Below are positions 2,458 through 27,355 of a stretch of 30,359 bases of DNA, piece by piece; the stretch's first letter is position 1; each line of letters opens with the position of its first letter. The position numbers and the translations under genes are program-made. This DNA comes from a virus. The stretch is taken from positions 1-30,359 of the IMG/VR virus record IMGVR_UViG_3300034107_000235. One strand, given 5' to 3'. Below the pieces are notes generated by a model. It did no database searches. It was not told the DNA's origin and was given only the letters and a program-made list of their open reading frames with translations.

Positions 2458-2490
2458 GGTGGTGCAAGCAGTGGGCTTGCTTGCACCACC
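2458..2490 (+). terminator. 13-bp perfect hairpin after the capsid gene
   Basis: GGTGGTGCAAGCA (2458-2470) pairs perfectly with TGCTTGCACCACC (2478-2490) across a 7-nt loop. It sits just after the capsid stop codon. There is no T-tract after it, so it may attenuate transcription or protect the 3' end of capsid mRNA and not act as a full terminator. Confidence 0.7.
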
Positions 2491-2519
2491 ACCTAACCCC
2501 GATCAACCAAAGGACAAAC

Positions 2520-3323
2520 ATGCAAGAGACTTTTGATCACCCTGGACAAGTCCTGCTGGCGTTCCCGTCAACAGGCCACGACATCAGCACACGGTTCATG
2601 CGTTCCTTCTGGGAGCTTGACGTTTGGGATCGTGAACGTGCAGTGCAAGTGTGGGAAGCGCTTGATGCACCGGAGTCACCGAACCCGATTGAGTTGCGCC
2701 TACTGCATAACTATGTTGCGCTCGAGGCCACAGCAAATCTTGCGAAGGCTCGCAACCGTTTGTGCGACGAGTTCTTAAAGACGTACACCGATGCCGAGTG
2801 GTTGTGGTTTGTCGATACTGACATGGTGTTTGAACCGCAGCTGATGCATCAGATGGTTGCACGAGCGGTCGAACATGACATCAAGATCCTTGGTGCGTTG
2901 TGTGTGATCCTCACCGCCGACGGCGTGATCCCCACCCTGTTCATTGATAACCCGCAGACGATCACGCAGGTGATGCTCGATTGGGCTCCGAACCAGCTGG
3001 CCGAGGTCGCTGCGACTGGCACTGGTTGCCTGCTGATTCACCGCAGCGTGTTGCAACAGATGTTTGATGCGAGTGGTGGTAGTACTAACTGCTGGTTTGG
3101 TTTCGATATTCGCTTTGGTGATGATGGTTCTGAGTGGGCGTTGGGCGAAGATGTGAGTTTCTGTTTGCGTGCGGGCGAGCAGGGCCACAAGGTTTATGTT
3201 GATACGACTGCGCATGTTGGGCATCACAAAGGCGGCAGGGTTTACTGGCCCAGTGACACAAAGACGATGGGTGTGACCCCACCTGAAGAACCACGCACCA
3301 CGGACGATAATGCTCGGACCTGA
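2520..3323 (+). CDS. GT-A type glycosyltransferase-like protein (GT2-like)
   Basis: This is probably a nucleotide-sugar-dependent glycosyltransferase. The sequence begins with a strand typical of the fold (QVLLAFPSTG), has NLAKARN at about 73-79, and carries the metal-binding D-x-D as WLWFVDTDMVF (D99, D101). A late segment, GEDVSFCLRAGEQGHKVYVDTTAHVGHHK (ED at 209-210), resembles the acidic catalytic motif and closing histidines of GT-A enzymes. The ATG at 2520 is preferred over an upstream TTG at 2481 because AAAGGA stands at about 2509-2514 and the TTG lies inside the post-capsid hairpin. Its place next to the capsid gene suggests that it modifies virion proteins or a host surface sugar; the acceptor is unknown. 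Confidence 0.75.
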   Translation: MQETFDHPGQVLLAFPSTGHDISTRFMRSFWELDVWDRERAVQVWEALDAPESPNPIELRLLHNYVALEATANLAKARNRLCDEFLKTYTDAEWLWFVDTDMVFEPQLMHQMVARAVEHDIKILGALCVILTADGVIPTLFIDNPQTITQVMLDWAPNQLAEVAATGTGCLLIHRSVLQQMFDASGGSTNCWFGFDIRFGDDGSEWALGEDVSFCLRAGEQGHKVYVDTTAHVGHHKGGRVYWPSDTKTMGVTPPEEPRTTDDNART

Positions 3324-4119
3324 CGCTTCTAGGTACATCCTCGCTGGTCGTGGTGTACCGGTGGCACGACCGTTCAATCTGAGATGGTTGCTACCTACCA
3401 TCTGCAAGGATGATCTGCGCAGATGGCGTGCGGTCTGGGTTACGTCATGGGTTGTTGCAGCGGTTGGCATGTTGTGGTGGTGCTCGGATCTTGGTTTGGA
3501 ACGTGCAGCAGCTGCAGCAGTGTTGTTGCTGGCATTGCCTGGAGTGTGGGGCCCGCAAGTAGTACGACCTGTTGGCGTTGACTTACCGGCGATGGCGGTG
3601 GCGATCATGGCTGTTGCCTGTTTCCAGCACGGACTGTGGCCTGTAGCGGTGTTGCTGATTTTGGTTGCCGCTTCCATCAAGGAAACATCACCTGTGTTTG
3701 CTGCGGTGTGGGCATGGCATCCGATCATGCTTATCGGTTTGATTGTGCTGGCTGTTGTGTGGTTTGTTCGCAAACCACAGATCGATCAGGTGACTGCACA
3801 GCCTTTGTTGCGCAGGGTGTATGAGCATCCTGTGATCACTGCTATGGAGTCTCATCGTGGGCGGTGGCGTGACGCTTGGTTGATGGTCGCACCGTGGGGT
3901 GCAACCTTGGCAGCTTTGTACCGGCCGTCGTGGCAGACGCTTCTGATTCTCGTTCTAGCGTACGCACAGCTTCTTGTTGCTACTGATACTGTTCGCCTGT
4001 TGCACACGGCTGCAGGGCCTGTGATGGCCATTGCTGCAGCACAGGTTCTACCTGTGCAGTGGTTGCCGCTGATACTTGTCGCACACTTCTTCTGGTGGAG
4101 AAAGCCCGAGGTCATCTGA
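3310..4119 (+). CDS. Polytopic membrane protein, function unknown
   Basis: This 269-residue protein has several strongly hydrophobic stretches: about residues 42-58 (VWVTSWVVAAVGMLWW), 65-80, 92-120, 133-153 (HPIMLIGLIVLAVVWFV) and the last 70 residues. It looks like an integral membrane protein with about six or more spans. It overlaps the upstream glycosyltransferase gene by 14 nt and its stop overlaps the ATG of the next gene, so the three are probably translated together. I do not recognise the family. A membrane protein within a head gene block, next to sugar and methyl transferases, could handle lipid-linked sugar transfer or alter the host envelope, but this is inference from position. 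Confidence 0.6.
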   Translation: MLGPDASRYILAGRGVPVARPFNLRWLLPTICKDDLRRWRAVWVTSWVVAAVGMLWWCSDLGLERAAAAAVLLLALPGVWGPQVVRPVGVDLPAMAVAIMAVACFQHGLWPVAVLLILVAASIKETSPVFAAVWAWHPIMLIGLIVLAVVWFVRKPQIDQVTAQPLLRRVYEHPVITAMESHRGRWRDAWLMVAPWGATLAALYRPSWQTLLILVLAYAQLLVATDTVRLLHTAAGPVMAIAAAQVLPVQWLPLILVAHFFWWRKPEVI

Positions 4120-4601
4120 TGCATCACGCAGTTCTCGAATGGGTGCAACGATGGGTGCCAGCAGGGCCAGCCAAAATTTTGGACTGCGGCGGCAGAGATA
4201 TAAACGGGCAACCGCACTACCTGTTCGAGCATTCGACGTTTGAGATCGTTGACCTTGTGGACGCACCTGGCGTTACTTGGGTAGGCGATATTCTCGACTA
4301 CGGCAGCACAGACAAGTTTGATGTGGGCCTACACCTCGAGGTTGCAGAGCACACACCTGATTGGCCGCTACACATCGCACACATGAAGAACCTGCTTGAC
4401 CATCGCAAAGGCCTGCTGATCTTCACCGCAGCCTGCTACGAACGTGCACCACACTCAGCGTCTGATGGTGGGCCGTTACAACCTGACGAGTACTACTTGA
4501 ACGTAGACCCCGACAACCTTTCTGTGATCCTCACACGCAACTTCGCAAAGCATGTGATTGATGTGCAGGGGAATGATGTAAGGGCTGCAGCATGGAGATG
4601 A
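4119..4601 (+). CDS. Putative SAM-dependent methyltransferase (class I)
   Basis: This 160-residue protein has a class I methyltransferase outline: KILDCGGRDINGQPHYLF at about 19-36 matches motif I (hydrophobic strand, acidic residue, glycines), TFEIVDLVD is the second strand ending in acid residues, and KFDVGLHLEVAEHTPDW resembles the motif where a SAM methylase often reads D-x-x-x-x-x-x-x-E-H. The TGATG overlap at 4117-4121 sets the start and implies coupling to the membrane protein gene. The set of glycosyltransferase, membrane protein and methyltransferase between capsid and connector genes suggests a surface-modification cassette. The substrate cannot be told from sequence. Motif I is shorter than usual, so activity is not certain. 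Confidence 0.62.
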   Translation: MHHAVLEWVQRWVPAGPAKILDCGGRDINGQPHYLFEHSTFEIVDLVDAPGVTWVGDILDYGSTDKFDVGLHLEVAEHTPDWPLHIAHMKNLLDHRKGLLIFTAACYERAPHSASDGGPLQPDEYYLNVDPDNLSVILTRNFAKHVIDVQGNDVRAAAWR

Positions 4602-4605
4602 ACGC

Positions 4606-5226
4606 ATGACAATAACAAACGGTTATCTCACACAAGCTGAAGCACTTGCCTACGTCGGGCAAAACCTTGTGCAAGACACAAGCCTTTTGGATGATGTGGT
4701 TACGTCGAGCTCAAGGATGATCGACCGTTACTGCGGGCGAGAGTTCTTTCAAACAACCGAGGCCCGTACGTTCGCCACATCCGATGACATCTACTCACTA
4801 GGTTTCGGTTCGTTCAACGACCTTGTGAGCGTCACGACACTTAAGACAGACCCGACTGGCGCAGGCGTTTACTCCACGACGATTGGTGCGACAAGTTTTC
4901 AGTTGTTGCCGTACAACGCATCGCAGATGGCTGAGCCATACGAATCGTTGCAACTTCTCGGTGGTGTGCAGTGGCCAGTGCCGACGTTCAACATGCGGCA
5001 GAACACGGTTGAGATAACTGGTGTGTGGGGTTGGCCTTCTGTGCCGCTTGATGTGAAACAGGCGTGCAGAATTATCGTGGCTGAGATCGCAAAGCTTGAG
5101 TCGGCACCGTTGGGTGTTGCAGGGTTTGGCGAGTTTGGTGTTGTGAGGGTTTCGCAGACAATGCCACCAAGGGCCCGCCAACTCCTACAACCGTACAAGC
5201 ACGGAAGTAACTTCGGTATCGCATGA
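4606..5226 (+). CDS. Head-tail connector (gp6-like adaptor)
   Basis: This is likely the adaptor ring that docks under the portal in HK97-like phages. It begins with an acidic helical segment, YLTQAEALAYVG...LLDDVVTSSSRMIDRYCGREFF, typical of gp6-like adaptors in which a bundle of helices carries a conserved Tyr/Arg-rich turn. The middle is beta-rich (LVSVTTLKTDPTGAG) and a WGWPSVPLDVKQACRIIVAEIAKL helix follows, a common feature of this family. The C-terminal MPPRARQLLQPYKH is also typical. The length of 206 residues is somewhat above the minimal family. A GGAGA ribosome binding site is present at about 4593-4597. Its stop overlaps the next start (ATGA). Confidence 0.75.
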   Translation: MTITNGYLTQAEALAYVGQNLVQDTSLLDDVVTSSSRMIDRYCGREFFQTTEARTFATSDDIYSLGFGSFNDLVSVTTLKTDPTGAGVYSTTIGATSFQLLPYNASQMAEPYESLQLLGGVQWPVPTFNMRQNTVEITGVWGWPSVPLDVKQACRIIVAEIAKLESAPLGVAGFGEFGVVRVSQTMPPRARQLLQPYKHGSNFGIA

Positions 5227-5615
5227 GCTCGATCACGAACGGCGAGATCAGAGAAGCGTTAGCGCAAGCACTTAACGCAGTGCCAGGGCTTAACATTTAC
5301 CGGTTCCCGCCGGAAGATGTAAACCCGCCATGCGCTTTCATCGCAGGGTTCAACATCACACCGCTCACGTTTGATGGGAACCGTGAAACAAAGGTTGATG
5401 TCACCGTTGTTGTCTCGCACAAACACGTTGACCAGATCGTTACCCTTGACGCAATGCTCGACTCCGATGGTGCTTGGTCGGTGGTTGACGCTATCGAATC
5501 TGCTACACCTCCTGGCATGAACTTTTTTGTTGAATCGATCGGCGGTTACCGTGAGCTCACCGTTGCTGATGTGGCCTACTACGCTGCAGATATAAACGTG
5601 ACGGTGCGAACATGA
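5223..5615 (+). CDS. Neck or tail terminator protein
   Basis: This small protein of 130 residues has an alpha-beta pattern: an N-terminal helix (GEIREALAQALNAVPGLNIYRF), a PPCAFI strand, a long strand (KVDVTVVVSHKHVDQIV), a helix containing LDAMLDSDGAWSVVDAIE, and a last beta hairpin. The arrangement resembles tail terminator or head-closure proteins of siphoviruses, which close the tail tube at the neck. No single diagnostic motif is present, so the assignment rests mainly on size, pattern and position between the adaptor and a gp10-like protein. ATGA overlaps join it to both neighbours. Confidence 0.5.
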   Translation: MSSITNGEIREALAQALNAVPGLNIYRFPPEDVNPPCAFIAGFNITPLTFDGNRETKVDVTVVVSHKHVDQIVTLDAMLDSDGAWSVVDAIESATPPGMNFFVESIGGYRELTVADVAYYAADINVTVRT

Positions 5616-6115
5616 GCGCAGCAGATTCGTTCGGTTTTAAAATGGTTCGCTATGCGGACAACATCACCGATGTGAACCGTAAGGCGACGATTGCCGCTGC
5701 GCTTGTTTACAAATCTGGGGTGTTGACATCTGCCGCTAGTTTCCTTGGCTCGGATCTGCGGTTCAGCGTGTGGAAGAAAGCACCCGCATACGGGCCGTCA
5801 CCGAGGTTCGGCGCAGGGTTCGAGGTTGGTGGCAGCAAAGTTCACGCAAACGCACTGTTGAAGGCTCGGCCTTTAGGCATGTGGCGGTTGCTAGAGAGTG
5901 GTACGAGAGAGGCAACTCACCCGATTAAGCTTCGCAAAAAGCAGGGCAAGAAGGTGATGAGTCGTGGCGGTCAGATATTCGGTACTACTGCAACGGTGCG
6001 TGGTATGAGAGGGCAGCAGTCGTGGTCGAAGGGTATCCGTTCAAGCGGGCCCGGTGCCATACAGGCGTACAAGCGCACACAAAAACTCGCACTGCTTGAG
6101 GCGAGTCGCAGGTAA
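5612..6115 (+). CDS. Basic neck/tail-completion protein (HK97 gp10-like)
   Basis: This 167-residue basic protein has the features of the HK97 gp10-like group: an N-terminal helix, a middle with glycine-rich basic loops (SPRFGAGFEVGGSKVHANALLKARPLGMWRLLESGTREATHPIKLRKKQGKK) and a C-terminal arginine-rich helix ending EASRR. The combination LLESGT followed by basic residues is typical of phage minor neck proteins. It is coupled to the upstream gene by ATGA, and its TAA overlaps the ATG of the glycosyltransferase that follows. The role is probably head-tail joining. Confidence is moderate because these short proteins diverge fast. Confidence 0.55.
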   Translation: MSAADSFGFKMVRYADNITDVNRKATIAAALVYKSGVLTSAASFLGSDLRFSVWKKAPAYGPSPRFGAGFEVGGSKVHANALLKARPLGMWRLLESGTREATHPIKLRKKQGKKVMSRGGQIFGTTATVRGMRGQQSWSKGIRSSGPGAIQAYKRTQKLALLEASRR

Positions 6116-7155
6116 TGCGAATACTTGTTGTGCACCCCGGTCCTAATTTCAGTGTGCAAGATGTGCATGATGGTTGGGTTGAGGGTTTCGAGGAGTTAGG
6201 CCACGAGGTCCAGCAGTACAACCTTGGTGATCGTTTGACATGGGCTGCGATAGCGCACCTTGGCATGGATGACGGCAGCTACATCAAAGCGTTCCCGAAA
6301 CCAGAGAACGTGTACAGCTTTGCGATCAGTGGTCTGCCGCAGGCTGCGTTGTACTGGTGGCCGCAACTGATTGTGTTTGTCAGCGGGTTCACGGTTGACC
6401 CGCAGTTCTTAGAGGTTTGCCGTGGTCGTGGTATCAAAACAGCTTGCGTGATGACCGAGAGCCCGTATGAGGAATCACGGCAACTGTTGATCGCACCGCA
6501 CTTTGATGCTGTGGCGTTGAACGATCCGACCAACATGGGCCAGTACGCAACGCTCACGACAGCGGTTTACACACCGCACGCATACCGGCCTGAGATCCAT
6601 TTTGAAGGCGAAGCACACGAGGACTACCACAGCGATTGTGTGTTTGTCGGTACGGGCTACCCATCGAGGGTTGCTTTCCTTGAGCGGTGCAACTTTGACG
6701 GCATTGATCTTGCGTTGGCTGGTAACTGGCAGAACGTGCCGACAGTCCTGGCTGATCGTGTTGTGCATGACATCGAAGACTGCATCGATAACGCACAGAC
6801 CGCAGAGTTGTACCGTGGCGCTAAAACCAGTTTCAACATTTACCGTACCGAGAACAACGGTGATGTTTCTGATGGTGCTGATGGTTGGTCTGTTGGGCCT
6901 CGTGAGATCGAGCTCGCAGCGTCTGGCACTTGGTTCGCACGGCAATCTCGTGGTGAGTCTGACGAGCTTTTTCCGATGCTCCCTACTTTTAACAGTCCTG
7001 AAGAACTTAGCGAGCTAATACGCTGGGCTCTTGAGAATCCCGTTGAGCGGCAAATTGCCGCTGAGCAGGCAAAACGTGTGGTCGCTGATCGTACGTTTCC
7101 GAATAATGCCCACATGTTGCTTGCAGCGTGTGGCCTAGTGAAAAGAGAAAGCTAA
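6115..7155 (+). CDS. GT-B type glycosyltransferase (CgeB/GT4-like)
   Basis: This 346-residue protein is probably a glycosyltransferase of the GT-B fold. The N-terminal MRILVVHPGPNFSVQDVHDGW is the characteristic first strand and loop of a group found in many actinophages. An N-terminal domain runs to about 170 (DPTNMGQY, YTPHAYRPEIH), and the C-terminal Rossmann domain begins at CVFVGTGYPSRVAFLERC and contains ELYRGAKTSFNIYRTENN and the conserved acidic segment SVGPREIELAASGTWF, where a Glu usually contacts the donor nucleotide. It follows the neck genes and its TAA overlaps the tail tube ATG. This placement fits sugar modification of tail or capsid proteins. The sugar and acceptor are not known. 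Confidence 0.75.
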   Translation: MRILVVHPGPNFSVQDVHDGWVEGFEELGHEVQQYNLGDRLTWAAIAHLGMDDGSYIKAFPKPENVYSFAISGLPQAALYWWPQLIVFVSGFTVDPQFLEVCRGRGIKTACVMTESPYEESRQLLIAPHFDAVALNDPTNMGQYATLTTAVYTPHAYRPEIHFEGEAHEDYHSDCVFVGTGYPSRVAFLERCNFDGIDLALAGNWQNVPTVLADRVVHDIEDCIDNAQTAELYRGAKTSFNIYRTENNGDVSDGADGWSVGPREIELAASGTWFARQSRGESDELFPMLPTFNSPEELSELIRWALENPVERQIAAEQAKRVVADRTFPNNAHMLLAACGLVKRES

Positions 7156-14768: not shown

Positions 14769-15617
14769 ATGAGAGACCTTGGTATTGCTGACAGACTCCG
14801 CAACGCTGGTTTGGTGGTTGAGGAACAACCAGGTTGGCAAACTCGTGGCTCAGCTTTGTTTGCTCCAAGGGCTGTGATGTGGCACCACACCGCAAGCGCT
14901 ATGGGCAAGAACCTGCCAAGCCTGAACATTGTGACCAACGGCAGACCAGACCTTGCGGGCCCGTTGTGCCATGTGCTTACGGGTCGGGATAACTGCAACG
15001 TGGTGATTGCAGCGGGCAGGGCTAATCATGCTGGTGCTGGCAGGTGGAACGGTAGCAGTGTCGGCAACAGCGCCTACTGGGGTATCGAGGTAGAGAACGT
15101 CGGCACTATCGCTGAACCGTGGCGACCAGACCAACTGCAAAACGTCGCCGAAGTAACTGCAGCGTTGATTGGTTATAACGCTGGATTGGTTGCTGATTGC
15201 TGTATGCATAAAGAGTGGGCACCAACACGCAAGATCGACATGCACACCATCTCTGGCAATGAGATGCGTGCTCGTGTCATGCAACTCTGCATCGGCACAC
15301 CAGCACCACCACCAGAACCAGCACCACCCACACCAGCTGTTGTTGACCTTGCAGCAATCGCAGCAGGCATAGCAGCAGCATCCAAACAGATCGTCAAACA
15401 GGGCACCAAAGGTGATGCAGCGAAATGGGCGCAAGCCCTACTCAACAACAAGCTTGATGGGCCAGACCTGATAGTTGACGGGAACTTTGGGCCAGCATCA
15501 GTAGCGGCAGCTAAACGCTTTCAAACAAACGTCAAACGGTTCTTCAAACTCTCATCCAAACAGATGCCAGTAGACGGAATCATTGGGCCATCAACCTGGT
15601 ATTGGCTAACAAGATGA
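14769..15617 (+). CDS. Endolysin: N-acetylmuramoyl-L-alanine amidase with peptidoglycan-binding domain
   Basis: This 282-residue lysin cleaves the bond between muramic acid and the stem peptide. The N-terminal domain (about 20-170) is amidase_2 type: the zinc-binding His pattern is visible as VMWHHTAS (H39/H40), NHAGAG (H87, motif RANHAG) and CCMHKEWAPTRKIDMH (H147, with K153/D157-type residues). A proline linker (PAPPPEPAPPTPAVV, about 179-193) leads to a C-terminal peptidoglycan-binding domain with LLNNKLDGPDLIVDGNFGPASVAAAKRFQ and VDGIIGPSTWYWL, the repeat of the PG_binding_1 fold. No signal peptide is seen, so a holin is needed for export, and one follows immediately. Confidence 0.92.
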   Translation: MRDLGIADRLRNAGLVVEEQPGWQTRGSALFAPRAVMWHHTASAMGKNLPSLNIVTNGRPDLAGPLCHVLTGRDNCNVVIAAGRANHAGAGRWNGSSVGNSAYWGIEVENVGTIAEPWRPDQLQNVAEVTAALIGYNAGLVADCCMHKEWAPTRKIDMHTISGNEMRARVMQLCIGTPAPPPEPAPPTPAVVDLAAIAAGIAAASKQIVKQGTKGDAAKWAQALLNNKLDGPDLIVDGNFGPASVAAAKRFQTNVKRFFKLSSKQMPVDGIIGPSTWYWLTR

Positions 15618-15628
15618 AAGGGCCACAC

Positions 15629-15814
15629 ATGAGCCTAAAAGATGAAGCAACACGAGCATGGGTCTACCGTGTGCTCACTGCAGCAGTGCCCTTGGTAGCT
15701 GCTTATGGGTTTATTGATGGGCGCACTGCTGCACTGTGGCTTTCAATGTGTGCAGCCATTCTGGGCACTGGCCTTGCGGCCTACAATACAAGCACGAAAG
15801 CAGGCGATCTATGA
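15629..15814 (+). CDS. Holin-like small membrane protein
   Basis: This 61-residue protein has two predicted transmembrane segments: VYRVLTAAVPLVAAYGFI (about 11-28) and LWLSMCAAILGTGLAAYN (about 35-52), with a short charged N-terminus (MSLKDEATRAW) and C-terminus. It lies directly after the endolysin gene, as actinophage holins do. I chose the ATG at 15629 because AAAGGG at 15617-15622 gives good spacing; ATG 15614 and TTG 15602 are alternatives that would overlap the endolysin stop. A longer start could give an antiholin form. Its stop overlaps the start of the next gene (ATGA). Confidence 0.72.
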   Translation: MSLKDEATRAWVYRVLTAAVPLVAAYGFIDGRTAALWLSMCAAILGTGLAAYNTSTKAGDL

Positions 15815-18054: not shown

Positions 18055-18102
18055 AGATCGACGGCGCAGTTTTGTTTGTCCTCTTCTGCATGCCGTCAGA
18101 TT

Positions 18103-18155
18103 GAACCCCCACATCTTGTGCGCAAGCCCACTGCGCCGATGTGGGGGTTCTTTCA
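18103..18155 (+). terminator. Strong terminator between tail/lysis operon and minus-strand gene
   Basis: GAACCCCCACATC (18103-18115) pairs perfectly with GATGTGGGGGTTC (18138-18150), 13 bp, across a 22-nt loop and followed by TTTC. It separates the plus-strand late operon from the convergent minus-strand Rpf gene, so it probably stops late transcripts and may also stop traffic from the other direction. Confidence 0.82.
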
Positions 18156-18171
18156 TGTCCGCAATTAAGTT

Positions 18172-18588
18172 CTAGCAGCCCGTACCGTTCCACGCTGAAG
18201 ACCAACCACTGTTCACCGTGTACACGGCAACAGCGTCTTGGATGTGTGGTGGCGCTGAGCGTGCCGTTGGGTAACCACCGTGGCCTGCACGGGCAGACAT
18301 GGTTTGCCAAGTGCTGTTCAGGTACTGATACGCACCACTAGCGGTGCTCACAGGGTTCTTCGCCTGATAGTTCCCACCACTCTCGTGCCGCCTGACGCAG
18401 GCGAGGAAACCACCTGGCGGGTTATGCGCTGGTGGTTCAGGTGGTGTTTGTAGCGATGCGATCACAGCCGCTTGTGATGGTCCATCCAATGCTTGGAACT
18501 GGGCTACCTGTTCACTGGTGCAGGCTGTAAAGAGTAATGGGATTGTAACGGCAAACAGTGTTGCTGCAGCTTTGATTGTGCGTATCAT
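18172..18588 (-). CDS. Rpf-like (resuscitation-promoting-factor/transglycosylase) secreted lipoprotein
   Basis: This 138-residue protein is the only minus-strand gene in the window. It has a positively charged start (MIRTIK), a hydrophobic signal segment and a lipobox-like PLLFTAC, with C23 the likely lipidation site. From about 58 lies a lysozyme-like transglycosylase domain: FLACVRRHESGGNYQAKNPV contains the expected catalytic Glu (E69) and ASGAYQYLNSTWQTM the substrate-binding part. C64 and the terminal C138 may form the disulfide seen in this family. A Pro-rich spacer lies between. The ATG at 18588 has a clear AGGAGA ribosome site; the longer reading frame above it has none. It could remodel host peptidoglycan, aid lysis, or stimulate dormant cells. 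Confidence 0.85.
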   Translation of the reverse strand: MIRTIKAAATLFAVTIPLLFTACTSEQVAQFQALDGPSQAAVIASLQTPPEPPAHNPPGGFLACVRRHESGGNYQAKNPVSTASGAYQYLNSTWQTMSARAGHGGYPTARSAPPHIQDAVAVYTVNSGWSSAWNGTGC

Positions 18589-18801
18589 TAAGTTGTCTCC
18601 TGGTCGGGATATGGAACAAGCCCACGCTGATGCGTGGGCTTCACCATTTACCCTAACAACTTCGGGCCTGCCGATGCACGCATACCTTCTCAAAAAGAAA
18701 TTTGAGAAATGCCACACCAAACCTTGCAACTCGTGCAACAATGGTTGCACGCCACCGAAACGGGGCGTACCACCACACCACCACAAAGGACAAACAACAC
18801 G
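18589..18801. promoter_or_regulatory. Divergent intergenic region with three inverted repeats
   Basis: This 213-nt region separates the minus-strand lipoprotein gene from the plus-strand early genes. It holds AAGCCCACGC/GCGTGGGCTT (18618-18627 and 18632-18641, 4-nt loop), TTCTCAAA/TTTGAGAA (18687-18694 and 18701-18708, 6-nt spacing) and CGTGCAAC/GTTGCACG (18732-18739 and 18744-18751, 4-nt spacing), the last with a nearby extra TTGCAAC. The short dyads could be operators. I did not find convincing -35/-10 sequences. Confidence 0.5.
18771..18796 (+). repeat. ACC-rich leader with AAAGGACAA, copy 1
   Basis: The stretch CACCACACCACCACAAAGGACAA just before the 18802 gene is nearly the same as that before the 19739 gene; AAAGGACAA also precedes the gene at 2520. 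It contains the ribosome binding site, so it looks like a reused translation-start leader. Confidence 0.6.
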
Positions 18802-19119
18802 ATGAATGCAATCACAGCAGGACTCCTACACAACCTCCGGCTCGAGGATCAGATCCTCACCTACAACGAACAACTCGCCAACATGAAACACCTTGGCATG
18901 GCTGAGCGTGTAGCAGTCCAAGACAGCCCACAACAAGATGCAATCATCACCTTGCTCGAGGAGCTCAACGATCAGGCGCAGGAATCATGCACGCAGATCC
19001 GTGATGATCTGGTTGATTCTGGGATCAACGCCACCTCTGCTTGCGGCGAAAGCGGCGACTTTGTGATTGAGCTTAAGACCGCTTCAGGCATGCATGTGAT
19101 CGCAGGGTGCCAGCTATGA
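18802..19119 (+). CDS. First early gene, unknown function
   Basis: This 105-residue acidic protein starts MNAITAGLLHNLRLEDQILTYNEQ, with the leader CACCACAAAGGACAA upstream providing AAAGGA at about 18785-18790. The body is helical (DAIITLLEELNDQAQESCTQIRDDLVDSGI) and the last 30 residues, SACGESGDFVIELKTASGMHVIAGCQL, are beta-like with two Cys. I recognise no family. The stop overlaps the next ATG (ATGA). It is the first gene of an operon of small genes that runs to about 20 kb. Confidence 0.6.
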   Translation: MNAITAGLLHNLRLEDQILTYNEQLANMKHLGMAERVAVQDSPQQDAIITLLEELNDQAQESCTQIRDDLVDSGINATSACGESGDFVIELKTASGMHVIAGCQL

Positions 19120-19343
19120 GCAACGACGGCGAAGTAATCGGCGGTGCGTGCGTCACTGACGCAGGCGTGCCAGTGGTCATCATCTCATCCGCATCGAAGT
19201 GGATTGAGTTCGATTCATCGTGCGGGTTTATGGAATGGAGGATGAGCGCAGATGATGCGTTCACCCTGTCAAACCTTCTGATCAACCGTGCGGTGCAGGC
19301 AATGAAGATGGCAGCAGAGGAGAGGGCGAACGATGACGAGTGA
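19116..19343 (+). CDS. Small early protein, unknown
   Basis: This 75-residue protein begins MSNDGEVIGGACVTDAGVPVVIISSASKW and continues IEFDSSCGFMEWRMSADDAFTLSNLLINRAVQAMKMAAEER. The strand-strand-helix order and a Phe/Met-rich core slightly resemble the pair of paralogous proteins encoded at 19739 and 22609. The ATGA overlap sets the start; a GTG at 19107 is less likely. The 3' end overlaps the next gene by 11 nt. Confidence 0.55.
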   Translation: MSNDGEVIGGACVTDAGVPVVIISSASKWIEFDSSCGFMEWRMSADDAFTLSNLLINRAVQAMKMAAEERANDDE

Positions 19344-19533
19344 AGGCAAGATCACGACAACAGAGTGTGCGTTCATCCTTGGTATCAATCGTGCGACGGT
19401 CACACGGTGGGTTCATAACGGGCAACTCAAACCAGAGTTCACCCTTGCTAACGGTCAGATCATCTTTGACCACGAATACATTTTGGATGTCGCAGCAGAC
19501 CTAGCACTCGAACAAGCAGAGGACAACGAATGA
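19333..19533 (+). CDS. Excisionase/MerR-like helix-turn-helix protein
   Basis: This 66-residue protein is probably a DNA-binding regulator. KITTTECAFILGINRATVTRWVHNGQLKPEFTLANGQIIFDHEYI has the short helix, turn and recognition helix order of MerR and excisionase-type domains, with the wing following (about 7-50). Small proteins of this sort often act as excisionase or transcription regulators. No integrase is found, so regulation is the more likely job. The neighbouring dyads upstream could be targets, which is inference. It overlaps the gene before by 11 nt and the gene after by 4 nt. Confidence 0.72.
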   Translation: MTSEGKITTTECAFILGINRATVTRWVHNGQLKPEFTLANGQIIFDHEYILDVAADLALEQAEDNE

Positions 19534-22609: not shown

Positions 22610-22923
22610 TGAGCACCAAAAAATCATCAGCACGCACCATGCAAGCAATCAAAGCAACGGTGTACCAAGAGGTAGAAGAGATCGACTTTTACCACACGAA
22701 CGCAAAGATGGTCGATGTCAGGGTGCGTGGCGATGACGTAGGCCATATGAGTTTCAGTATCGGCAAAGCGGTGTTCTTCCTCGAGGGGACCGGCACCAAG
22801 CTGCAAAAATGCCAAGCAATCCGAGACATCGCACAAGCACTCACCACCGCAGCGGACCTGCTCGAAGCAGAAATCGCTGCGGCCGAAACGTACTTCTCAG
22901 AGCAACTGCTGTTAGGTGACTGA
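22609..22923 (+). CDS. Small protein, paralogue of the 19739 gene product
   Basis: This 104-residue protein contains NAKMVDVRVRGDDVGHMSFSIGKAVFFLEGTGTKLQKCQAIRDIAQALTTAADLLEAE. It shares with the 19739 product the order KM-V, GH, F-x-x-G-x-A-x-FF-x-EG and a terminal helix. It starts at the TGATG overlap. Function is unknown. The two copies at different places in the early region suggest that they have separate targets or dosage roles. Confidence 0.62.
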   Translation: MSTKKSSARTMQAIKATVYQEVEEIDFYHTNAKMVDVRVRGDDVGHMSFSIGKAVFFLEGTGTKLQKCQAIRDIAQALTTAADLLEAEIAAAETYFSEQLLLGD

Positions 22924-23347
22924 CCTCATGCGCCTACCAGTACGGGCTGAGATGATCGACCACCTAACCATCATCGTCGAAGACTGCAACAAACAGGCCC
23001 ACTGGCGTAAACACGCTGCGTGCCGTGGCATGGACACCAACCTGTTCTACCCAGAACCGGGATACAACGGGCACAGAAAACAACGGCAAGCGCAAGCGGT
23101 ATGCGCCGGATGCCCTGTACAAGCCGAATGCTTACAAGCGCTTGGTCGTTACAGTGGTGGGATTGTCGGCGGGCAAACCACAGCACAACGCACCAAAGGC
23201 CACATGATCAAAAAGAACCTCGACCTACTCCAACTACGGGATCACATCATCAACACCGAACCGTTGGAGATCGCAGCGCACGATCTTGGCATCAGCGCAC
23301 AATCAGTAAAAAAGCACATCCACCGCCACCCCGAAGGAGTCGCATGA
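22916..23347 (+). CDS. WhiB-family Fe-S regulator (first copy)
   Basis: This 143-residue protein carries the WhiB cluster: AACRGMDTNLFYPE (C36), AVCAGCPVQAECLQAL (C63, C66, C72) and GGIVGGQTTAQR in place of the usual G-[VI]-W-G-G turn. The four Cys should bind a [4Fe-4S] cluster; WhiB proteins bind the host sigma factor and change transcription. A basic C-terminal region with IAAHDLGISAQSVKKHIHRHPEG could contact DNA. The start is uncertain: GTG 22916 overlaps the previous gene by 8 nt, and ATG 22928 is an alternative. The tryptophan of the turn is lacking, which is a deviation from most members. Confidence 0.82.
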   Translation: MTDLMRLPVRAEMIDHLTIIVEDCNKQAHWRKHAACRGMDTNLFYPEPGYNGHRKQRQAQAVCAGCPVQAECLQALGRYSGGIVGGQTTAQRTKGHMIKKNLDLLQLRDHIINTEPLEIAAHDLGISAQSVKKHIHRHPEGVA

Positions 23348-23487
23348 AAGATCAAAAGCTCGAGCACTGCCACCAATGCGGCAAACCTGTCACACCCGGC
23401 ATCGATCACGACACAGCGAACATCAACGGCATCCGTTGGTGGTGCCCAGAACACTGCCCACAATGCCGAGAGTCCCCTAACAGATGA
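23344..23487 (+). CDS. 47-residue zinc-ribbon protein
   Basis: This short frame overlaps the WhiB stop (ATGA) and the next start (ATGA). It encodes MKDQKLEHCHQCGKPVTPG with C9 and C12, then WWCPEHCPQCRESPNR with C34, C38 and C41. The paired CxxC-type groups suggest one bound zinc ion. Position between two WhiB genes suggests a regulatory partner or assembly helper, which is inference only. Confidence 0.6.
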   Translation: MKDQKLEHCHQCGKPVTPGIDHDTANINGIRWWCPEHCPQCRESPNR

Positions 23488-23915
23488 CACCTGAAGAATG
23501 GGACATCGCAGCATGCAGATACCACCCAAAAGAACTGTTCTTCCCAGACCGAAACAACTTCGGTCAAGTATGGGACCGGGCCCGCAACATCTGCCAAGAA
23601 TGCCCAGTCAAAGCCGCATGCCTCCAAGACGGGCAACACGAGGTGTTCGGCATGTGGGGAGGGCTTAGCCCAGCAGAAAGGGGATACGGTCGCTCAAACA
23701 ACGCAGCACCAATGAGTACCGAACGCATCGCAGCCTTGCTCGAACACGTTGGCAAACCCATGACAGTCAACCAGGTATACCTAGCCTTACATCCGCATTA
23801 CACGAAACACGCCACACGCAACGCCTTAACCAGACTCGCACAAGGCGGCATCGCCACCCGCACCTCCAACGTCCAACCTGAACCAGACACCTACCACTGG
23901 AACCACCACACATGA
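23484..23915 (+). CDS. WhiB-family regulator fused to winged-helix-like domain (second copy)
   Basis: This 143-residue protein has the WhiB pattern AACRYHPKELFFP (C11), NICQECPVKAACL (C37, C40, C46) and VFGMWGGLSPAERGYG (GMWGG at 56-60), the conserved turn. The rest differs from ordinary WhiB proteins: residues about 79-127 (STERIAALLEHVGKPMTVNQVYLALHPHYTKHATRNALTRLAQGGIATRTS) look like a winged helix, with three helices and a short wing. It may thus bind both the sigma factor and DNA. ATGA overlaps tie it to the zinc ribbon gene and the PrimPol gene. The fusion is based on my reading and would need structure prediction. Confidence 0.78.
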   Translation: MTPEEWDIAACRYHPKELFFPDRNNFGQVWDRARNICQECPVKAACLQDGQHEVFGMWGGLSPAERGYGRSNNAAPMSTERIAALLEHVGKPMTVNQVYLALHPHYTKHATRNALTRLAQGGIATRTSNVQPEPDTYHWNHHT

Positions 23916-25990
23916 CCACAGACCCGCACAACACAGCCAACGAATACGCACAACGAGGATGGCGAGTAGTGCCCATTGTGCCAGGGGAGAAACGACCAGC
24001 GCTCAACCAGTGGCAACACCAAGCAACAACGGACACCACAACCATTGACCGATGGTGGATGGGTGAACACTCCGGCTGCGGAGTAGGCATCGCAACAGGA
24101 GAACAATCAGGCATCTGGGTCTTAGACATCGATGACCGAGACGCACTCTACGAACTGGAGAAGGAACACGGTGAGCTACCACCAACGCTCACATCGATTA
24201 CAGGTAGCGGCGGTGAGCATCAGGTGTACCTGTGGCCGGCAGATGGGCGCACCATCCACAACAGCGCCAGCGGGTTCATACAAGGCATAGATGTCAGGGG
24301 CGAAGGCGGCCAGATCGTCGCACCACCAACCATCCACCCCAACGGCAACCCATACGAATGGGACGAACAATGCACAGAAATCGCTGCAGCACCCGAATGG
24401 CTACTAGCCCTCATCTGCGACAAAGACCCACAACCCACCACCACACAACCCACCCCGAGCACCACCACCACAGACAGACCAGGAGACCTATGGGCACAGC
24501 AGACCGACTGGGCATACATCCTCATACCCGACGGCTGGCAACTCTCACACACCGACAACAACGGCGAACGCTACTGGGTACGACCCGGCAAAGAACCACG
24601 AGACGGCATCAGCGCAACCACAGGGCACACAGCAAACGACAACCTGCACGTGTTCACAAGCTCAGTACCCAACCTCAAAGCAGAAGAAACATACACAAAG
24701 CTCGGATACCTCGCAGCCATACACCACAACCACGACCACGCTGCAGCGGCACGAGCACTAGCAGCACAAGGATTCACCACACCACAACCAGACCTCAACA
24801 TCCTCAACCACCTCACCACAACCGCCAGCGGTGAACCAGATGCGAACCCGCTTGCCCCATACCTCATCGACTGGCAAAGCTTCTGGACCACAGACCACAC
24901 CGAAACAGAATGGCTACTCGAACCCCTCTTCGCAAAAGGCAGGGCACACGCAATCTACGCCGGAGCCAAAGTCGGCAAAAGCTTTGTCACACTCGCAGCA
25001 TGCGCAGCCCTAGCAACCGGCCAACCATTCCTACGCAAACCCCAAACAAACCCACAACACGTACTCTACGTCGATTACGAGATGACACCAACAGACCTAT
25101 ACGACCGCCTCACAGAATTCGGATACGAATCCACAATCTTCGACCACCTCCACTACGCACAACTACCAGTCATCGCACCCCTCGACACCTCACAAGGCGG
25201 CATCGCACTCTGCCAAGCCGCCCACGCAGTCGGCGCAGAAATAGTAATCATCGACACCACAGGCAGAGCAGTACAAGGCGAAGAAAACGACGCAGGCACC
25301 TACCAAGACTTCTACCGCCACACAGGCATGCAACTCAAACGCATGGGCATCACATGGGCACGCCTCGACCACGCAGGCAAAGACACCACCAGAGGCCAAC
25401 GAGGATCATCAGCAAAGAACGACGACGTAGACATAGTCGTCAACCTCACACGCACACCAACCGGCATCACATGGACAGCAACCCACAGGCGCATGTCCTG
25501 GTACCCAGAACAATCAGACATCACCATCGCAGAACTAGACGACCAAGCCACCTTCACAATGGAAGGCGGCAACCTCGAACAGTTCGAGCTCCACATCTTC
25601 GACCTCTCAGACTGGCTCGACGCTGAAGGAATACCAGCCAACGCACCCATCCGAGAATGCTGGGCACACACCAAAACAAACGGACCCGCAGGCACCCTCA
25701 AAAAGGATGTACAAGCGGCAGTCAGGTACCGCAAATCGGCACAGTATTCGCTGCGAAAAACAGGGCGGGACAAAGCTCGGGACACGCCTCCGGACAAAAC
25801 TGCGGGACAGACTGCGGGACACTCTGGGACAGAACCCGAAACCCATACAAACAAAGGCGGGACAGAGAGCGGGACACTGCGGGACACTATTGAGCAGGCA
25901 CAGCGGGACACTCTGTCACCCCGTAGGGGGGACAGAGTTCACGGCCCACAAACCGAACACCCAAACCAACCCACATACGAAGAGTTCTAA
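23912..25990 (+). CDS. Primase-polymerase/helicase replication protein
   Basis: This 692-residue protein is probably the phage replication enzyme. Residues about 8-165 form a bifunctional primase-polymerase (AEP) domain: GWRVVPIVPGEKRPAL, WVLDIDDRDAL (D72, D74), GEHQVYLW (H103) and GIDVRGEGGQIVAPPTIHPNG. A Thr/Pro linker (about 172-190) leads to a RecA-like helicase/ATPase: Walker A AGAKVGKSF (350-358), LYVDYEM and Walker B AEIVIIDTTGR (442-452), then RLDHAGKDTTRGQRGSSA. The pairing recalls plasmid and phage RepA-type initiators. The last 90 residues are low in complexity because the DNA there carries the GGGACA repeats. The ATG overlaps the upstream stop (ATGA). Confidence 0.86.
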   Translation: MTTDPHNTANEYAQRGWRVVPIVPGEKRPALNQWQHQATTDTTTIDRWWMGEHSGCGVGIATGEQSGIWVLDIDDRDALYELEKEHGELPPTLTSITGSGGEHQVYLWPADGRTIHNSASGFIQGIDVRGEGGQIVAPPTIHPNGNPYEWDEQCTEIAAAPEWLLALICDKDPQPTTTQPTPSTTTTDRPGDLWAQQTDWAYILIPDGWQLSHTDNNGERYWVRPGKEPRDGISATTGHTANDNLHVFTSSVPNLKAEETYTKLGYLAAIHHNHDHAAAARALAAQGFTTPQPDLNILNHLTTTASGEPDANPLAPYLIDWQSFWTTDHTETEWLLEPLFAKGRAHAIYAGAKVGKSFVTLAACAALATGQPFLRKPQTNPQHVLYVDYEMTPTDLYDRLTEFGYESTIFDHLHYAQLPVIAPLDTSQGGIALCQAAHAVGAEIVIIDTTGRAVQGEENDAGTYQDFYRHTGMQLKRMGITWARLDHAGKDTTRGQRGSSAKNDDVDIVVNLTRTPTGITWTATHRRMSWYPEQSDITIAELDDQATFTMEGGNLEQFELHIFDLSDWLDAEGIPANAPIRECWAHTKTNGPAGTLKKDVQAAVRYRKSAQYSLRKTGRDKARDTPPDKTAGQTAGHSGTEPETHTNKGGTESGTLRDTIEQAQRDTLSPRRGDRVHGPQTEHPNQPTYEEF
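25766..25937 (+). repeat. GGGACA iteron-like array with terminal hairpin (candidate replication origin)
   Basis: Eleven copies of (C/G/T)GGGACA or CCGGACA start at 25766, 25778, 25790, 25803, 25815, 25825, 25858, 25870, 25880, 25904 and 25928. The spacings are 12, 12, 13, 12, 10, 33, 12, 10, 24 and 24, close to one or two helical turns. The copies fall in all three codon phases of the host gene, so the selection is on DNA and not on protein. The array makes a local G-rich patch in a G-poor region. It ends in CTCTGTCACCCC (25911-25922) facing GGGGGGACAGAG (25926-25937), a 12-bp stem with one mismatch that includes the last copy. Confidence 0.75.
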
Positions 25991-26002
25991 GGACACCAAA
26001 CC

Positions 26003-26248
26003 ATGCCCAACTGTCAATGCCAATACCGAGGTGACCTACTCACACAAGGACACCGAGACCACCACCGCAACTGGGAACAAACACAACCCACAACCAGACA
26101 CCCAACCACCTCCACCACAACAGCAATCGAGATCACCCAACTCATCATCGCCATCGACCAACTCACCGCAGCCCTACACGGCGGCCCACCACCACCGCTC
26201 ACACCAGGAGCACAAGCAATCATCGCCAACCACAGGAGCCAACAGTGA
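26003..26248 (+). CDS. Small early protein, unknown
   Basis: This 81-residue protein starts at ATG 26003 with AAGGA at 25990-25994. It begins MPNCQCQYRGDLLTQGHRDHHRNW, with two Cys and several His, and continues with a Thr-rich stretch, a helix (IEITQLIIAIDQLTAALHGG) and a Pro-rich end. A GTGA overlap couples it to the next gene. No family is recognised. The base composition is extremely C/A-rich, as in its neighbours. Confidence 0.5.
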   Translation: MPNCQCQYRGDLLTQGHRDHHRNWEQTQPTTRHPTTSTTTAIEITQLIIAIDQLTAALHGGPPPPLTPGAQAIIANHRSQQ

Positions 26249-26769
26249 AAGACCTCGACCAGCTCACAGCCCTAGCCAACACCATCACACGCATCCTCGA
26301 AGCCGGCGCACAAGCACTCATCGAACAACGCAGTGGTTTCCCAGCCGGTGGCACAGGCGGCACACCAAGCTCAACCAGTGACCGCACAGGCAGGCTCGCA
26401 ACAACACGAGCAGACAAAGGCCCAGAACGATCAGACCAAGACTACGAACGAACCATACAGATCCTCATTGAGCTCGAGGACATCCTCAACCGAGCACGAC
26501 CACCCAAACGCACAACCATCCACATCCAAGCAACCACCACACAACACGACGATGGCTGCAGATCATGCGCACGAGTAGGCACATGGACCGCACGAACCAA
26601 GAACAACCCCATGTGCCGCACATGCAACGAGCTCATCCTCCGCATACAAATGCAACACAACATCACCCTCGAGCTACCACCAACCACACTCGTCGACCGC
26701 CAACGCCAAGGCCGCCGCATCACCACACGAGAAATCAACCAAGCACTCCACGAAAATAAAACACGGTGA
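26245..26769 (+). CDS. Putative zinc-finger protein
   Basis: This 174-residue protein starts at a GTG with a CAGGAG site about 7 nt upstream, overlapping the TGA before it. After an N-terminal helix (DLDQLTALANTITRILEAGAQALIEQ) and a Gly/Ser-rich linker there is a second helix (YERTIQILIELEDILNRAR). Residues 105-127 are CRSCARVGTWTARTKNNPMCRTC, a CxxC-x15-CxxC pattern expected to hold zinc. The end is basic (VDRQRQGRRITTREINQAL). It may bind DNA or join a replication complex; the function is not known. Confidence 0.6.
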   Translation: MKDLDQLTALANTITRILEAGAQALIEQRSGFPAGGTGGTPSSTSDRTGRLATTRADKGPERSDQDYERTIQILIELEDILNRARPPKRTTIHIQATTTQHDDGCRSCARVGTWTARTKNNPMCRTCNELILRIQMQHNITLELPPTTLVDRQRQGRRITTREINQALHENKTR

Positions 26770-26845
26770 TAACCTTGACGATCGCCACCACCACATGTAA
26801 CGCTTACGGCAGTCTCACCACACCCAGCCTAGAAGCAGGACAGTG
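26770..26845. other. Short intergenic region with weak TTGACG element
   Basis: This 76-nt gap contains TTGACG at 26775-26780 and TGTAAC at 26796-26801, 15 nt apart. The spacing is short and the second hexamer is poor, so a promoter here is only possible. AGCAGGACAG before 26846 serves as ribosome site for the HNH gene. Confidence 0.25.
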
Positions 26846-27121
26846 ATGGCATCCAAAGGCCGCAGCACTAGGCAGTGGAAGACCATCAGCCTTACCGTCT
26901 ACGCAGAAGAAACACATTGCTGGCTATGCGGACGAGCAGTAGACCACACCATCCAACCAAGAACACGATGGGCACACAGTGTCGATCACATCATCCCAAT
27001 CAGCCAAGGCGGCGCACCATACGACCGTGCCAACCTCCGCCTCGCACACCACGGCTGCAACAGCCGACGCTCCAACAACCGAGCGCAACCACAACGACCA
27101 GGCGCAACACGCCAATGGTAA
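26846..27121 (+). CDS. HNH endonuclease
   Basis: This 91-residue protein has an HNH fold: CWLCGRAVD (C25, C28), HSVDHIIPISQGG (H44, D47, H48) and NLRLAHHGCNSRR (N63, H69, C71, N72), the order of a Cys-framed HNH nuclease. HNH proteins next to terminase genes commonly act with TerL in genome cutting at the packaging site. A GTG start at 26843 is possible, but ATG 26846 is better placed to the AGCAGGACAG ribosome site. Its stop is followed by the DnaA-box region. Confidence 0.85.
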   Translation: MASKGRSTRQWKTISLTVYAEETHCWLCGRAVDHTIQPRTRWAHSVDHIIPISQGGAPYDRANLRLAHHGCNSRRSNNRAQPQRPGATRQW

Positions 27122-27355
27122 AACCTCACACACAGTGAGATAGTTATCCACAGATAACCTGCCCACCCCACGAAAGTTATCCACAGAAACCTGTGAACTT
27201 TTTTTAGGGGTGGGTGCTTGAGTATCCCGCTGCTTTTACAGGCCGATTTTTCTCTCCACAATTTCTCAACGTTATCCACAGATTTCTGGGGATAACCTCG
27301 GAAGCTTAAAAAGGTTGTCCACAGGGCCTGTGGATTGTTTCGGAAGGTGGTCACG
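27122..27355. promoter_or_regulatory. DnaA-box cluster, origin-like intergenic region
   Basis: This 234-nt non-coding stretch contains TTATCCACA at 27144-27152, 27177-27185 and 27272-27280, and TTGTCCACA at 27315-27323, all in the same orientation. TTATNCACA is the E. coli DnaA box and TTGTCCACA is the usual actinobacterial form. Weak reverse sites occur at 27287-27295 and 27329-27337. Small dyads overlap boxes (GTTATC-CACA-GATAAC at 27143-27158 and TCCACAG-GGC-CTGTGGA at 27318-27334). A T-rich stretch (27231-27270) between boxes could unwind. Confidence 0.82.
27173..27205 (+). terminator. Hairpin with T7 tract inside the DnaA-box region
   Basis: CACAG (27182-27186) pairs with CTGTG (27191-27195) and AAAGTT (27173-27178) with AACTTT (27196-27201), with a 3-nt bulge on the left arm and a T7 tract at 27199-27205. 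It is a plausible end for early transcripts. DnaA box 2 (27177-27185) overlaps the left arm, so bound DnaA and termination may interfere. Confidence 0.6.

Follow-up and report, generated by a model that had tools for sequence, protein, structure and literature searches.

The Rpf-like gene and its setting

The window, by which we mean the whole 30,359-base stretch of DNA analysed, is an IMG/VR virus record whose head, tail, lysis and replication genes all lie on the plus strand. Within this actinophage sequence of about 30 kb the sole supportable minus-strand gene is located at 18172..18588 (138 aa, stop included in the coordinates) and encodes an Rpf-like lipoprotein. The original prediction had described it as an ORF with a signal segment, the lipobox PLLFTAC and a catalytic Glu, and as the only gene on its strand; its position and motifs agree with that description, all remaining ORFs with a homologue or a family match are on the plus strand, and the other minus-strand ORFs of the window have neither a family match nor a conserved homologue. 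The lysis module is encoded on the plus strand by genes for an amidase endolysin with a peptidoglycan-binding domain (14769..15617) and a holin (15602..15814). With this separate amidase–holin pair present, the Rpf-like gene is unlikely to be the endolysin of a lysis cassette: an endolysin would be expected in the late lysis operon and without an export signal of its own, and this gene is on the opposite strand and encodes a signal peptide. On its other side lies a divergent plus-strand operon, the first gene of which (18802..19119) encodes a product of unassigned role.

Two different WhiB-family genes are found close together at 22916-23347 and 23484-23915, and since WhiB genes mark an actinobacterial host (PMC10202952) they indicate that the host of this phage is an actinobacterium, as had been proposed. 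We note the presence of two distinct WhiB genes near each other in one small phage genome. Other features of the window include a putative glycosyltransferase-like gene (2481-3323) between the major capsid and connector genes, which is 95-97 % conserved in relatives, and a strong AT skew (0.45-0.5) with negative GC skew at 24001-27000, in the primase-polymerase region; repeated GTTATCCACAGA boxes, which are DnaA-box-like, follow at 27139-27282, and the skewed region and boxes together are perhaps a candidate replication origin. The window is short by a few hundred bases at the junction; a 33.8-kb relative (G007) spans the rest of the genome, and the two jointly cover the genome of this phage type, here called group A, almost completely.

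Putative transcription signals on either side of the gene

The gene is assigned an ATG start at 18588, with the Shine-Dalgarno sequence AGGAG (18597..18601, minus strand) 8 nt before it; the flanking CCAGGAGACAA is invariant in six phages. Farther upstream on the same strand are a hairpin with an invariant stem, GCCCACGC-AWCA-GCGTGGGC (18620..18639), in the presumed 5′ leader, and a candidate extended −10 element, TGTTAGGGT (18650..18658), that is kept in five of the six phages. A longer reading frame starting with TTG at 18786 was rejected because the leader hairpin, the Shine-Dalgarno sequence and the signal peptide all place the start at 18588. The divergent region between the gene and the plus-strand operon is 213 bp long and conserved, and contains two operator-like palindromes, TTCTCAAA-6-TTTGAGAA (18687..18708) and GTGCAAC-4-GTTGCAC (18733..18750), each kept in most group A phages. 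When this region was scanned with the sigma-70 consensus no site matched.

At its 3′ end the gene converges on the late operon, and between the two gene ends there is a long stem-loop of 48 bases (18103..18150), a probable two-way terminator, in which the relatives show a compensatory change at one pair and a single insertion that is itself paired. A diverged form of it is present at the same place in a phage contig that lacks the Rpf-like gene (L109, described below), and the stem-loop therefore belongs to the end of the late operon and not to that gene. A second conserved hairpin, with an invariant stem and a near-invariant loop, lies at 18060..18097. The two-hairpin element as a whole (18055-18171) is 83-97 % identical among relatives, with fold z-scores of −5.4 and −6.2, and its hairpin arms CGGCGCAGT and ACTGCGCCG could alternatively pair with each other; a known RNA was rejected here, as an Rfam search of the segment gave nothing above cutoff. 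The terminator-like hairpin and the divergent region noted in the original prediction are thus real and conserved, and they are consistent with a separate transcription unit that would be read from a promoter of its own.

The predicted lipoprotein and its fold

The first 22 residues (18523..18588, minus strand, as are all positions in this section) form a predicted signal peptide of the lipoprotein type, PLLFTA–C, with a hydrophobic stretch of mean 1.95. The next residue, Cys23 (18520..18522), fits the PROSITE lipoprotein pattern PS00013 and is the predicted lipidation site; the protein would thus be exported and lipidated here. The stricter Gram-positive lipobox pattern is missed because of a Phe at position −3; three phage relatives and 21 of the 22 chromosomal ones do match it. 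Cys23 is followed by a linker of about 40 residues and then by an Rpf/transglycosylase-like domain (residues 59-138; 18175..18414), predicted from the PF06737 family, an AF2 model and likeness to RpfB. Glu69 (18382..18384), within an HESGG motif, is the predicted catalytic acid on the strength of its invariance, which extends to its surroundings (A1, A4).

Both Cys23 and Glu69 are kept in all 18 phage relatives and in all 22 chromosomal ones, the signal sequences differing between the two groups; the active-site Glu is thus conserved, as the original prediction required. Part of the phage set was gathered via the HESGGNY motif, so that motif invariance in that set is biased; the chromosomal set was gathered with an HMM profile and likewise keeps the catalytic Glu. 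The terminal Cys that had been remarked upon is indeed present (Cys138; 18175..18177), and it co-occurs with Cys64 (18397..18399), both being present in 23 of 33 homologues and both absent from 8. This pattern is in keeping with a predicted disulfide that would close the domain, as in Rpf proteins; Cys138 most likely pairs with Cys64, which would explain the terminal position of the residue. The gene is under purifying selection, with dN/dS values of 0.21-0.27 between the window and five phages of the same type, and of 0.13-0.29 for the domain alone.

The PF06737 match is only slightly above the cutoff (29.7 bits against 27; close relatives score 26.5-35), and the RpfC equivalog NF046107 of NCBIfam scores 18.9 bits, far under its cutoff of 200. 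The AF2 model of the mature protein, built with 33 homologues, has a pLDDT of 91.8, an earlier model from ten close sequences having been poor. Its best structural match is the catalytic domain of RpfB (Z 11.8, rmsd 1.9 Å over 75 residues), followed by RpfC (Z 10.9) and RpfE (Z 10.8), the Rpf matches having rmsd values of 1.8-1.9 Å over 71-75 residues and ranking above phiKZ gp144 (Z 8.4) and common lysozymes (about 7.5). The Foldseek E-values, 7e-3 at best, are weak, as is not uncommon with a domain this small. Judged from the alignment ends, the RpfB counterpart of Glu69 (residue 47 of the model) is residue 292, the catalytic Glu of RpfB. Sequence and predicted fold together support assignment of the product as an Rpf-type lipoprotein, with enzyme activity that is probable from the same evidence.

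In another reading the protein is a decoy, or a remnant with a structural part only: as a lipoprotein it would bind the wall and retain its fold, with the activity unused. The bare margin of the Pfam score would fit this, and the invariance of Glu69 and its surroundings and the purifying selection on the domain make it most improbable.

Phages that carry the gene and a temperate sibling that does not

Five group A records (L016-L019 and L027) have a common gene order, with the Rpf-like gene inverted between the same neighbours, and a sixth (L054) stops within the gene; the inversion is at the same place in every fully covered relative that has the gene. The 10-kb contig L109, which covers the locus, encodes an amidase 90 % identical to that of the window and lacks the Rpf-like gene, which is thus accessory. 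Between its lysis module and early genes L109 has the stem-loop and then a lysogeny module (3960-6591) comprising an attP-like sequence, a tyrosine integrase (4509-5666, plus strand) and an HTH repressor (5644-5991, minus strand); a sequence resembling a tRNA 3′ end in this module could be the attP site. The locus illustrates how modules are exchanged between temperate phages and phages that do not integrate.

A search of 13 records with the gene, among them the window, found neither a tyrosine nor a serine integrase (PF00589, PF00239), and no repressor was recognised in the window. Since the module occupies the same locus in L109, the Rpf-like gene sits at the lysogeny site of its kin, in phages that seemingly do not integrate. 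The earlier proposal of independent expression therefore holds in part: a separate transcription unit is supported, and expression from a prophage is weakened, the only integrase being that of L109, where the lysogeny module replaces the gene. A small HTH protein is encoded at 19333-19533 of the window, so that non-integrative persistence is possible. That the Rpf-like gene stands in place of a lysogeny module suggests that lifestyle and control of the host wall are connected.

The phages carrying members of the same protein clade range from 30 to 128 kb and are otherwise largely unrelated. Group B carriers (records up to 49-67 kb) have a different terminase and an M15-peptidase lysin, and carrier phages of 97 and 128 kb share the amidase–holin module with group A. 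L032, a 54-kb phage otherwise unlike the rest, also carries the gene, which there has 57 % G+C within a 40 % G+C stretch, a contrast that is a sign of recent arrival. The domains of all carriers aligned are 81-95 % identical to the one in the window's protein (90 % for L032), with values of 82-90 % for unrelated phages. Use of one gene by several kinds of phage probably reflects a common tool for remodelling the host wall during infection. We note that nine further phage records (L012-L014, L036, L038, L039, L044, L045 and L049) encode exported-looking Rpf-like proteins of a different build and with no evident lipobox, which suggests repeated independent use of such enzymes. The plasmid search revealed no homologues beyond one staphylococcal SceD.

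Chromosomal relatives and descent

A pattern scan of genome contigs gave one distant match, and it was an HMM profile search of genomes that found the same lipoprotein architecture in the chromosomes of one Acidimicrobiia family, where 22 of 33 genomes have it; among the 296 genomes sampled from the class (Acidimicrobiia) and the 396 from the phylum, none from other families passed an E-value of 1e-20. In the clearly mapped case (L098) the neighbourhood of the Rpf gene looks chromosomal, and no phage gene was recognised in it by eye. The chromosomal proteins (L056-L061 and L066-L081) have the same order of parts as the phage copies, with a lipobox Cys, a linker and a domain ending in xGC, and their domains are 55-72 % identical to that of the window. 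Their linkers are 35-53 residues long as against 38-42 in the phage copies, and in 15 of the 22 (among L056, L057 and L066-L081) the linker includes an EF-hand-like or Ca-loop-like DxNxDGxIxxxE motif that all phage copies lack; in most chromosomal proteins HES is also followed by a short insertion.

A maximum-likelihood tree places the phage proteins in a single clade (100/100) beside those of the Acidimicrobiia family, the inner forks being weak. A single clade spread over largely unrelated phages points to one capture followed by transfer from phage to phage. The wide chromosomal presence and the nesting suggest that the direction was from host to phage, with weak inner fork support for the nesting, and the relationship indicates which bacterial family these uncultured phages are likely to infect. 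One genome bin of this family includes a 6.7-kb contig with related head genes (67-71 % DNA identity); the contig is purely phage sequence and so a weak host link. A search of the family's genomes for the group B terminase gave no match, a result that is uninformative.

A proposed role for the Rpf-like lipoprotein during infection

The reading that we favour, to which we give a probability of roughly 0.5, is that the gene encodes an active, lipid-anchored peptidoglycan-cleaving enzyme of the Rpf type, descended from the Acidimicrobiia family, captured by a phage and expressed from its own promoter, which remodels the wall of the infected cell and keeps the host growing. Its ancestor would be the lipoprotein encoded in the chromosomes of that family, captured in what the tree indicates was a single event and then passed among phages. 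Transcribed against the plus-strand operons, the product would be exported through Sec, lipidated at Cys23 and anchored to the outside of the membrane, where Glu69 would cut glycan strands in the cell's own wall; because of its anchor it should act mainly there and not as a diffusible factor. The proposed benefit is that slow hosts are kept growing, the wall staying in, or returning to, a growing state long enough for phage production, and lysis would be left to the holin and amidase. When phage WC1 infects Rhodococcus, expression of four out of the six rpf genes of the host rises, a change by which, its authors propose, the phage prevents dormancy (PMC10986025); TM4 has a wall-hydrolase motif in its tape measure protein, and this helps it to infect stationary cells (PMC1796659). 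Since the host already has a chromosomal copy, a second one would be of less certain benefit.

A bolder version would make this an anti-dormancy gene of non-integrating phages, a captured host surface growth factor that was shortened with its lipid anchor retained, placed at the integrase–repressor site of temperate kin and exchanged between phages with the same hosts, and that keeps slow-growing cells in growth, or returns them to it, during infection; we regard it as doubtful but conceivable. We consider it unlikely that the protein is a superinfection exclusion lipoprotein, an anchored enzyme that alters or occupies the wall site used for injection by competitor phages and in this way shields the infected cell from them. 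Such a role would suit its position where the temperate sibling L109 keeps a lysogeny module, the spread of the gene among phages probably sharing hosts, and the precedent of Ltp of phage TP-J34, which is encoded in a lysogeny module and transcribed against all other genes (PMC3952083). However, a catalytic domain under purifying selection and so alike in unrelated phages fits a shared enzyme better, and with no integrase or repressor recognised in the window there is no lysogen to protect.

Help with lysis, in which a second wall enzyme would act from outside and assist the holin and amidase in opening or dispersing the cell, is still less probable. The end of the gene adjoins the lysis module, the predicted fold is muralytic and the two larger carrier phages have the same amidase–holin module, but the gene is on the opposite strand with its own leader, outside the late operon; export by a signal peptide needs no holin, so that its timing would have to be separate, and many carriers (group B) use the M15 peptidase as lysin. 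For studying how a phage manages on hosts that are slow or dormant, especially uncultured actinobacteria, this host-related lipoprotein, maintained by selection in several kinds of phage, offers a single small protein as a handle for tests.

Comparison with known systems

The nearest well-known proteins are RpfB, RpfC and RpfE (PF06737), which the window's protein resembles in catalytic fold, in the equivalent position of the Glu and in having an export signal; its domain is only 24-25 % identical to solved Rpf domains, and the protein is shorter, predicted to be lipid-anchored and has no accessory domains that we could find. Streptomyces phages encode 'hydrolases' (Blueeyedbeauty gp19 and its kin) that are likewise free-standing exported PF06737 proteins of actinophages, their gene being set against its neighbours on one side, as in the window; they differ in having no lipobox that we could see and a long coiled linker, and their identity to the window's protein, about 53-73 %, is confined to a core of about 40 residues. 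Phages also use an Rpf-like domain as a tape measure motif, as in the Barnyard tape measure protein (PMC1796659), but there it is part of the virion, whereas here it is a separate lipoprotein; the window's own tape measure protein has no Rpf-like motif. Ltp of TP-J34 (PMC3952083) shares with the present protein its lipoprotein nature, its position at a lysogeny module and its opposite strand, but is not known as a wall enzyme, and the window phage has no recognised repressor or integrase. Our literature search, with most subscription papers outside its reach, found no paper on a free-standing Rpf encoded by a phage. Rpf-like domains in phages are thus already known as tape measure motifs and as the exported 'hydrolases' of Streptomyces phages; what appears to be new, and without precedent in the literature searched, is a predicted lipid-anchored, host-related Rpf protein common to several phage types and placed at a lysogeny locus.
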